Shown here: one piece after another, positions 6,666 to 9,581 of the stretch
Position numbering within the stretch: the first letter of the stretch is position 1
How the letters are laid out: each line of letters starts with the position of its first letter
Assembly (NCBI RefSeq): GCF_003932785.1
Contig: NZ_RQYT01000006.1
Location: forward strand, 1 to 64,000
Length of the DNA stretch: 64,000 bases
Direction of reading: 5' to 3'
DNA from: Arachnia propionica
GTDB taxonomy: Bacteria > Actinomycetota > Actinomycetes > Propionibacteriales > Propionibacteriaceae
Made by a program: the position numbers and the translations under genes
Notes under the pieces: generated by a model
What the model was told of the DNA's origin: nothing
What the model saw: the letters and a program-made list of their open reading frames with translations, nothing else
Database searches by the model: none

Positions 6666-8399
<1,734 letters not shown>

Positions 8400-8437
8400 T
8401 CACTCCTTGCTGGGTGGGTGCCAGGCACACAGGGGCT

Positions 8438-8485
8438 CCGCAGCGAGGAGGCTGGCCGATGAATCAGGACGGGGCCTCGCTGCGG
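8438..8485 (-). promoter_or_regulatory. leuA leader hairpin and Shine-Dalgarno switch
   Basis: The arms CCGCAGCGAGG and CCTCGCTGCGG form a perfect 11-bp stem with a 26-base loop (8449-8474). Outside it, leader bases CTCCTTG (8496-8490), which are leucine codons of the leader peptide, are exactly complementary to CAAGGAG (8409-8403), the leuA Shine-Dalgarno. The two helices nest, so the folded leader would hide the ribosome-binding site. No run of U follows the stem, so control of translation rather than termination is inferred. Confidence 0.7.
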
Positions 8486-8514
8486 CATCCAAGGAGCAGG
8501 TGTGAAGGAGCCAC
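8464..8514 (-). CDS. leuA leader peptide (16 codons, three consecutive Leu)
   Basis: Reading GTG at 8514 gives MAPSHLLLGCRSEAPS then TGA. Three consecutive leucine codons (CTG CTC CTT) occur at residues 6-8. The GTG lies 7 bases after the -10 TAGCCT, where transcription should begin, so the peptide is probably translated from a leaderless mRNA; no Shine-Dalgarno is present. The stop falls in the loop of the leader hairpin. A ribosome stalled at the leucine codons would cover both the anti-Shine-Dalgarno bases and the 5' arm of the stem. Confidence 0.7.
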   Translation of the reverse strand: MAPSHLLLGCRSEAPS

Positions 8515-8521
8515 GAGGAGC

Positions 8522-8550
8522 AGGCTAGCGGCGAGCGGGGCTGGGATCAA
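8522..8550 (-). promoter_or_regulatory. leuA promoter
   Basis: On the minus strand TTGATC (8550-8545) and TAGCCT (8527-8522) are separated by exactly 17 bases, a good housekeeping sigma pattern. The predicted start, about 8514-8515, coincides with the GTG of the leader peptide. Confidence 0.6.
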
Positions 8551-8657
8551 GCCCTCTGGTCACCCCAGCAACGACTCCGATCGTCCTTCCCCTCCGAATG
8601 GAGACGACGCACCAAGCGCGAGGACGTGGCAGGATCACGGGCCGCACACCGCCTCGC

Positions 8658-9581
8658 TCAGAAACCCAGCCGATTGAGGTACTTGGTGTCCCGTTGCCAT
8701 TCCTTGAGCACCTTGACGTGCAGGTGCAGGTGCACGGGCGTGCCGAGCAAACGATTGATCTGCAGGCGCGCGGCCGTCCCGATCTCCCGCAGCCGTGATC
8801 CCTTGTGACCGATGATGATCCCCTTCTGCGATTCCCGTTCCACGACGATGGATGCGAACACGTCCAGCAGGGGACGGTCCTCGGGGCGGTCGGGCCGGGG
8901 CAGGATCTCGTCGATGACGACGGCGATGGAGTGGGGCAGCTCGTCACGGACCCCCTCCAGGGCCGCCTCCCGGATCAACTCCGCGATGAGGGTCTCCTCG
9001 GGCTCATCGGTGACCTCCCCGTCGGGGTAGTACATGGGCCCCTCCGGGAGCAGCCGCAGCAGGACGTCTCGCACCGTGTCGACCTGGTCGTGCGCCACCG
9101 CGGAGCAGGGGACGACCTCCGCCCAGGAGATCCCGAGCTCGTCCGCGAGGGCCGAGATGTCGACCAGGTGGGACAGCACGCGCTCCTTGGTGACGAGGTC
9201 CGTCTTCGTGGCCAAGGCGACCAGCTGGGGACGGTTCGCCAACTCGGCGATCTGGGTGACGATGTAGCGGTCCCCGGGCCCGATGCGTTGATCGCACGGA
9301 AGACACACGCCCACCACGTCCACCTCGGACCACGTCTCCCGCACGAGATCGTTGAGCCGCTCCCCCAGCAGCGTCCGGGGGCGGTGGAGGCCGGGGGTGT
9401 CGATGAGGACCAGCTGTCCGTCGGGGCGGGTGATGATCCCGCGGACGGCGTGCCGGGTCGTCTGGGGTTTCGACGACGCGATGGCGATCTTCTGCCCGAC
9501 GAGGGCGTTCGTCAGCGTCGACTTCCCGGCGTTGGGGCGCCCGACGAAGCAGGCGAAGCCGGAACGGAAGGTGTCAGTCAT
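8658..9581 (-). CDS. era: GTPase Era
   Basis: A 307-residue GTP-binding protein that binds 16S rRNA and assists 30S subunit maturation. G1 is GRPNAGKST (residues 14-22), G3 is DTPG (61-64), G4 is TKTD in place of the usual NKxD, and the C-terminal KH domain shows GHKGSRLREIGTAAR. The length is normal. Its start overlaps the stop of the upstream CBS-domain gene by 8 bases; era is the last gene of the phoH-ybeY-corC-era run. Confidence 0.97.
   Translation of the reverse strand: MTDTFRSGFACFVGRPNAGKSTLTNALVGQKIAIASSKPQTTRHAVRGIITRPDGQLVLIDTPGLHRPRTLLGERLNDLVRETWSEVDVVGVCLPCDQRIGPGDRYIVTQIAELANRPQLVALATKTDLVTKERVLSHLVDISALADELGISWAEVVPCSAVAHDQVDTVRDVLLRLLPEGPMYYPDGEVTDEPEETLIAELIREAALEGVRDELPHSIAVVIDEILPRPDRPEDRPLLDVFASIVVERESQKGIIIGHKGSRLREIGTAARLQINRLLGTPVHLHLHVKVLKEWQRDTKYLNRLGF

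Follow-up and report, generated by a model that had tools for sequence, protein, structure and literature searches.

The leuA leader of Arachnia propionica is a LEU element with counterparts before other leucine genes of Actinomycetes

Parts of the leader upstream of leuA

The window analysed here, a 64-kb stretch of DNA from Arachnia propionica, carries on its minus strand the leucine biosynthesis gene leuA, preceded by a short leader made up of the following parts.

6666..8396, minus strand: leuA, 2-isopropylmalate synthase, 576 aa; leuA locus matched in 60 of 60 relatives
8396, minus strand: first base of the leuA start codon ATG, read from the sequence
8550-8545, minus strand: -35-like hexamer TTGATC, read from the sequence
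8527-8522, minus strand: -10-like hexamer TAGCCT, at a 17-nt spacer from TTGATC and 7 nt upstream of the leader GTG
8464..8514, minus strand: leader ORF of 16 codons plus TGA (GTG 8514-8512, stop 8466-8464), from the sequence
8499-8491, minus strand: three Leu codons CTG CTC CTT, from the sequence, with Leu runs in relatives
8496-8490, minus strand: putative anti-Shine-Dalgarno CTCCTTG (segment 1), within the Leu codons, from the sequence and swap tests
8485-8475, minus strand: hairpin 5' arm (segment 2), CCGCAGCGAGG, inside the leader ORF
8448-8438, minus strand: hairpin 3' arm (segment 3), CCTCGCTGCGG, 11 pairs with the 5' arm
8452..8456, minus strand: pseudoknot 5' strand GCCAG in the hairpin loop, pairing with 8420-8424
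8420..8424, minus strand: pseudoknot 3' strand CTGGC, partner of 8452-8456
8441-8450, minus strand: candidate second anti-Shine-Dalgarno (the 3' arm plus 8449-8450), 9 of 10 pairs with 8403-8412, from folding
8409-8403, minus strand: Shine-Dalgarno (SD) region of leuA, CAAGGAG (segment 4), from the sequence

The leader ORF reads GTG GCT CCT TCA CAC CTG CTC CTT GGA TGC CGC AGC GAG GCC CCG TCC TGA, and its CTCCTTG (8496-8490) can form 7 uninterrupted, exact pairs with CAAGGAG (8409-8403). A first-pass annotation of the locus had described the promoter-like TTGATC-N17-TAGCCT, the GTG, the ORF of 16 codons that includes three for Leu, an 11-bp hairpin at 8438-8485 and the exact complementarity to the leuA SD, and all of these hold at their coordinates on the minus strand. 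The annotation had also called the attenuator complete; the parts that it listed are indeed present, but it had missed the pseudoknot and the possible second anti-SD in the hairpin 3' arm.

On both strands of the window CTCCTTG occurs 24 times (6.3 expected), and one exact copy within a leader of about 110 nt is, taken alone, a chance event of about 2%. The single-sequence fold showed no excess stability (z -1.32; 20 of 200 shuffles as good). A strict sigma-70 consensus scan of 8300-8700 returned no promoters, the leader hexamers failing it, and a scan of the same stretch for intrinsic terminators found none. Among the Rfam families (T-box, riboswitches and leader families), none matched the window at the curated score; the best weak match lay on the opposite strand, with 23 bits against a cut-off of 50. 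Two identities tried for the window leader were thus rejected: a classical transcription attenuator, as the leader lacks the terminator hairpin with U-tract, and a known Rfam family. The leader feature rises above chance because it is conserved among relatives.

Leaders of this kind have been described before. A 2005 paper by Seliverstov, Putzer, Gelfand and Lyubetsky (PMC1262725) reports a LEU element before actinobacterial leuA, which comprises a leader ORF with a Leu run, a base stem between the Leu run and the leuA SD, a pseudoknot within that stem and no obvious terminator; the remark of the first-pass annotation that Leu-rich leuA leaders are known in actinobacteria agrees with it. The window leader lies directly before leuA and has the Leu-run ORF, the Leu-run/SD stem and the pseudoknot. 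With all three kinds of feature present, it belongs to the LEU element and is a further example of an already known kind of RNA.

Conservation of the leader ORF and its pairings

We sampled 138 leuA loci, taken from 58 of the 60 relatives' genomes (G006 and G014, with a broken leuA, were left out) and from the best 80 of 592 scan loci. They yielded 136 distinct leaders after removal of L031 (Propionibacteriaceae bacterium S7A_St_31), identical to L009 of same-genus genome G013, and of L115, identical to L039. L113, with no leuA start in the fetched stretch, was left out; L029, with a misassigned leuA start, was kept in the first stem swap and pseudoknot tests and left out where the start was needed; and L032, with no TANNNT, was left out of the fold models. 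The hairpin anchor of L034, L047 and L116 was set by hand. The group labels used below (Kribbella, Nocardioidaceae, Strep, f3other, f4, mixed) are our own assignment by record title and likeness, and all swap and Fisher tests ignore shared descent.

An ATG or GTG in frame with the Leu run stood 6-11 nt after a TANNNT in 135 of 136 leaders, compared with 12 of the 1355 other ATG or GTG codons in the same stretches. Judged by sequence, such spacing fits a leaderless start, as the annotation had proposed; the promoter fails the strict sigma-70 scan. The stop codon fell within the hairpin loop in all 135 leaders compared, and 130 of these 135 had a run of at least three Leu codons. Leader peptide, Leu run and SD complementarity, on whose conservation the first-pass annotation had staked its reading, are all conserved among relatives.

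Since the Leu codons and the anti-SD overlap, little follows from the second and third Leu codons being conserved. At the first Leu codon, which the 7-nt SD complement of the window does not reach, 32 of the 33 leaders of the genus encode Leu (CTG in 16, CTT in 8, CTC in 8; the other has TTT). At the third, 29 of 33 leaders use CTT and 4 use CTC, although CTT accounts for only 3 of 219 Leu codons in five genes of the window. The first codon thus varies synonymously while the third stays CTT or CTC: one position keeps its amino acid, the other its bases.

The hairpin keeps at least 10 of its 11 pairs in 135 of 135 leaders. In 61 aligned sequences 99.0% of cells were paired, and 29 double-change cells were found against a shuffled mean of 10.6. 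The pseudoknot also covaries: in a contiguous-helix test with 5000 permutations per set, none did as well as the real pairing in the genus or in the full set of 135 leaders, and 5 did so among the other genera of the family. Within Nocardioidaceae (2615), Kribbella (5000), f4 (5000), Streptomyces (1121) and the mixed group (1453, each of 5000), where the pseudoknot varies little, there was no signal. Compared with a reversed control, the pseudoknot stood out clearly in the family (z 5.2 versus 2.3) and showed no clear gap in the genus (z 3.5 versus 3.2); scored by gapped duplexes, it was not significant (genus 537 of 5000).

For the Leu-run/SD stem, cognate pairing exceeded swapped pairing with z -4.5 among 32 same-genus leaders and z -5.5 among 40 family leaders, whereas |z| did not exceed 2.9 in 24 control windows or 0.7 with reversed or complemented SDs. 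Permutations that matched the cognate stem numbered, of 5000 each, 4 in the genus, 4 in Streptomyces, 71 in Kribbella, 166 in other Propionibacteriaceae and, weakly, 491 in Nocardioidaceae; the test was not significant in the mixed group (929), f4 (1298) and f3other (3330, again of 5000 each). Pairing was highest with the two strands in their true register (0.75 in the genus); sliding them lowered it to 0.61 or less. Rigid SD-anchored columns gave no stem covariation beyond shuffles in any of six sets (genus, family, Nocardioidaceae with 7 sequences only, Kribbella, Streptomyces and all), because CTCC and GGAG hardly vary. The rigid register shows none of the compensatory changes that the annotation had proposed to look for in the SD/anti-SD helix; the helix draws its support from the energy-based swap tests.

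The pairing of the hairpin 3' arm with the SD was likewise stronger in cognates than in swaps when all groups were pooled (0 of 4000), consistent with folding, and weak within groups (genus 155 of 4000, z -1.9; family 225 of 4000, z -1.5). As the arm fits the folding but the swaps within groups are weak, we keep it as a possible second anti-SD.

A covariance model covering the hairpin and its flanks (model R1) was used to map the element. In Propionibacteriaceae it matched 133 of 147 genomes, with all 29 genera represented (E 0.001); in the class it matched 368 of 394 genomes and 127 of 138 genera (E 1e-4), and in an evenly drawn phylum sample 23 of 246 genomes (E 0.001). The model was built from 61 leaders, so that matches in the genomes that contributed them are partly circular. 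Among the 14 family genomes without the element, 7 also have no leuA match at E 1e-100. Of the other 7, three with a readable leuA start and upstream DNA (L248, L249 and L251) have no such leader, and four are cut by contig ends or lack the leuA start. In two of these three, leuA follows era after about 39 and about 21 nt, and in L251 a TAGACT lies 7 nt upstream of the ATG of leuA, a spacing that would suit a leaderless leuA. L175 and L176, of family f19 in a different class of the phylum, carry the element with an LLLL leader before leuA. Many genomes gave two or three matches; the window's own genome gave one.

Copies before leuA paralogues, leuC and leuB

Copies were fetched at 89 loci, some of them first copies before leuA, from 68 multi-copy genomes of the class and from a further batch, together a part of all such genomes. 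Sorted by tblastn bit score, the downstream genes were LeuB at 33 loci, LeuA2 at 21, LeuA at 19, LeuC at 8 and undecided at 8. The leaders of the 83 loci with a hairpin were compared, L161, L170, L172, L200, L207 and L230 being left out for want of a strict hairpin.

The codon content of the leaders differed with the gene that follows. A run of at least three Leu codons was found before leuA in 18 of 19 loci, before the leuA paralogue in 12 of 15 and before leuC in 8 of 8 (38 of 42 in total), versus 0 of 33 before leuB (Fisher p 3e-17, descent ignored). Conversely, the seven codons before the arm included Val or Ile in 33 of 33 leuB leaders and in 9 of the 42 others. In the four genomes with both kinds (G043, G046, G049 and G058), LLL or LLLL in the leader of leuA contrasts with VLI, VLVLI or LVVV in that of leuB. 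The loci are as follows.

leuB copies with Val/Leu/Ile leaders, e.g. MRSVLVLIECRGEAY: L163, L165, L171, L177, L181, L182, L187-L189, L192, L196, L197
leuB copies, continued: L201, L203, L204, L212, L214, L217, L220, L223, L225, L227-L229, L232-L237, L239, L245, L246
leuC copies with Leu-run leaders, about 80 nt upstream of leuC: L160, L178, L190, L193, L199, L209, L210, L216
Loci with a conserved microprotein: L204, L214, L229, L233, L189, L196 and 22 further leuB loci

At 28 of the 33 leuB loci the microprotein is placed between the element and leuB, and it also follows the element in 2 of the 8 undecided ones (L195 and L238). It is about 27-50 aa long, with a C-terminal end like ALDLRDNGGQRPDDN or AMDRRDNGGETGH and a DxRDNGG-type motif; three examples had no match in Pfam or NCBIfam. 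Of the 33 leuB loci, 19 showed an IlvE match in the neighbourhood of LeuB; the fetched DNA was often too short to show one. At L171 the element match is weak and lies 1.6 kb from a leuB-like gene. Four loci of family f7 (L206, L240, L242 and L247) have leaders with LLV, LV or LVV that precede a small stand-alone protein, which in L247 gave a weak match to the LeuA allosteric domain (PF08502, E 0.0013, below the cut-off); the other three were likened to it by eye.

In leader/SD swap tests of the copies, the counts out of 4000 each were 31 for LeuC and 55 for the microprotein start, and 163 for LeuA2 and 339 for LeuA (four loci), the last two in groups from an earlier sorting that had counted many ordinary leuA as paralogue. 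For the LeuC copies the reversed control bound as well as the cognate. These swap tests are weaker than those of the leuA leaders, and a shared output mechanism is therefore less sure for the copies.

The 2005 text, as far as it is accessible, names leuA and one transposase gene as LEU sites, with no leuC, leuB or leuA-paralogue sites (PMC1262725). A literature search, for which subscription papers were mostly outside reach, found no description of copies before leuA paralogues, leuC or leuB. We give an even chance to the following reading as a whole: one leaderless-leader RNA architecture would have been copied across the leucine genes of Actinomycetes, its codons rewritten for each target, to form a branched-chain regulon run by ribosomes. 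Its targets would be leuA, the leuA paralogue, leuC, the cassette of microprotein and leuB, and the stand-alone protein weakly resembling the LeuA regulatory domain; its codons would be Leu only before leuA and leuC and Val/Leu/Ile before leuB; and tRNA charging would set the pathway with no regulator protein.

Proposed mechanism and comparison with known leaders

We modelled ribosome positions by nested folding, with the pseudoknot left out and a footprint of 15 nt blocked on each side of the P site. With no ribosome, the window SD was unpaired at 0.12 and paired to the Leu run at 0.83. A ribosome at the first Leu codon raised the unpaired value to 0.50 and one at the second to 0.45; with the ribosome at the third it was 0.17, and with the ribosome at the stop 0.14. 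In this last state the SD was paired at 0.38 to the hairpin 3' arm and at 0.20 to the Leu run. The SD was opened nearly as much by a control ribosome at codon 3 (0.45 in the window, 0.31 in the genus), because the footprint of that ribosome reaches the first Leu codon. The genus means were 0.13 for the free RNA, 0.36 at the first Leu codon, 0.19 at the last and 0.20 at the stop, and a stall at the first Leu codon increased SD access in 94 of 133 leaders (means 0.21 to 0.35). The f3other group showed no gain on this stall (0.19 versus 0.19) and 0.41 at the stop. In the model, then, the SD opens in the direction predicted, by a modest amount, and the first two Leu codons matter most. The nested fold moves in the direction of the annotation's switch with a stall at the first Leu codon (0.12 to 0.50) but leaves the SD closed with a stall at the third.

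The mechanism put forward in the first-pass annotation is the best reading of the leader, and we consider it probable that the LEU element is a leucine-responsive translational attenuator of leuA, the switching of which we infer. Transcription probably begins at the leader GTG, so that ribosomes would load straight onto the 5' end. With leucine present, the ribosome would cross the Leu codons, reach the stop in the hairpin loop and depart; the hairpin, the pseudoknot and the Leu-run/SD stem would then close and hide the leuA SD. As long as a ribosome occupies the stop codon, the SD may be bound by the released 3' arm instead. With leucine short, the ribosome would stall at the first Leu codons and cover the anti-SD while the hairpin still forms, and we propose that the SD is thereby left open and leuA translated.

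Among the alternatives, transcription attenuation, in which leader translation would control premature termination, perhaps by Rho, instead of SD access, appears unlikely. The leuL of C. glutamicum is described as a transcriptional attenuator (PMC8709942), leuA and leuL RNA are reported to rise together after 5 min of starvation (PMC6892785), and Rho-dependent ends would show no motif. Against this, 8300-8700 holds no intrinsic terminator, at least 5 T in the 8 nt just after the hairpin occur in only 9 of 135 leaders, and the conserved pairing includes the SD.

Somewhat less credible still is that the element is a binding site for a regulatory protein (orthologues of M. leprae ML1624) and that leader translation is incidental, although the fold is compact and conserved. 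Protein binding by ML1624 orthologues was the preferred idea of the 2005 authors, who judged it likelier than attenuation and left the mechanism open, partly since the S. coelicolor mutants misfit classical attenuation (PMC1262725). As told there, mutations in the S. coelicolor leuA leader have some effect that is inconsistent with classical attenuation, and elsewhere in that paper Leu-codon mutations leave regulation uninfluenced (via PMC1262725). So reported, the mutants speak for a protein site and stand against a simple version of translational attenuation. However, most Leu codons double as anti-SD, and the Leu-codon mutants therefore do not decide: with two Leu codons acting as both sensor and anti-SD, mutating them would alter both roles at once, which offers a reason for their odd behaviour. 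The first Leu codon, which lies beyond the window's SD complement, and the Val/Leu/Ile leuB copies would allow the two roles to be told apart cleanly. Incidental translation would predict neither an in-frame leaderless start in 135 of 136 leaders, nor synonymous variation at the first Leu codon, nor Val/Leu/Ile codons before leuB.

That the leader ORF merely brings ribosomes to leuA or keeps the RNA open, with Leu codons as a by-product of the SD complement, seems very improbable: CTC CTT in frame reads Leu-Leu anyway and the modelled codon-3 ribosome opens the SD too, but the first Leu codon lies outside the complement and is kept as Leu through synonymous changes, and codon content tracks the downstream gene. 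If translational attenuation is true, ribosomes on tiny leaders would set leucine synthesis in most of the sampled Actinomycetes.

The window leader resembles several leaders known from other actinobacteria. It shares with the mycobacterial polycysteine leaderless ORFs an amino-acid run that overlaps RNA able to hide the next SD. We know of no pseudoknot in those ORFs. According to the citing papers, the polycysteine ORFs are short and leaderless, as the window leader probably is, with a run of one amino acid, and the speed of their ribosomes sets translation of the next gene, as is proposed here; they sense cysteine and have been tested experimentally, whereas the window leader would sense leucine and is known from sequence and modelling (Canestrari 2020, via PMC13236596, PMC9031893).

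In S. lividans, the leuA leader is described as transcribed leaderless and with no typical terminator; its leuL1 is like the window leader in placing a Leu run before leuA, with the peptide MRFGLLLLSCRGEGL and a four-Leu run, and its start was mapped by RNA-seq whereas ours is deduced (PMC8079986). The uORF of leuA in M. abscessus is given as ribosome-protected (PMC4974804). The leuL of C. glutamicum also encodes a Leu-run leader peptide before leuA but is described as acting by transcription attenuation, unlike our translational reading (PMC8709942, PMC4046766). Actinobacterial ilvB attenuators resemble the window leader in having a leader rich in branched-chain amino acids before a branched-chain gene, but end in a terminator hairpin with U-tract, which the window leader lacks (PMC1262725, PMC13236596). 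The LEU element of 2005 has the same leader ORF, base stem, pseudoknot, lack of terminator and leuA target as ours (PMC1262725). The 2005 paper states that P. acnes has no LEU element, whereas here it is present in a genus of Propionibacteriaceae and in 133 of 147 genomes of the family.
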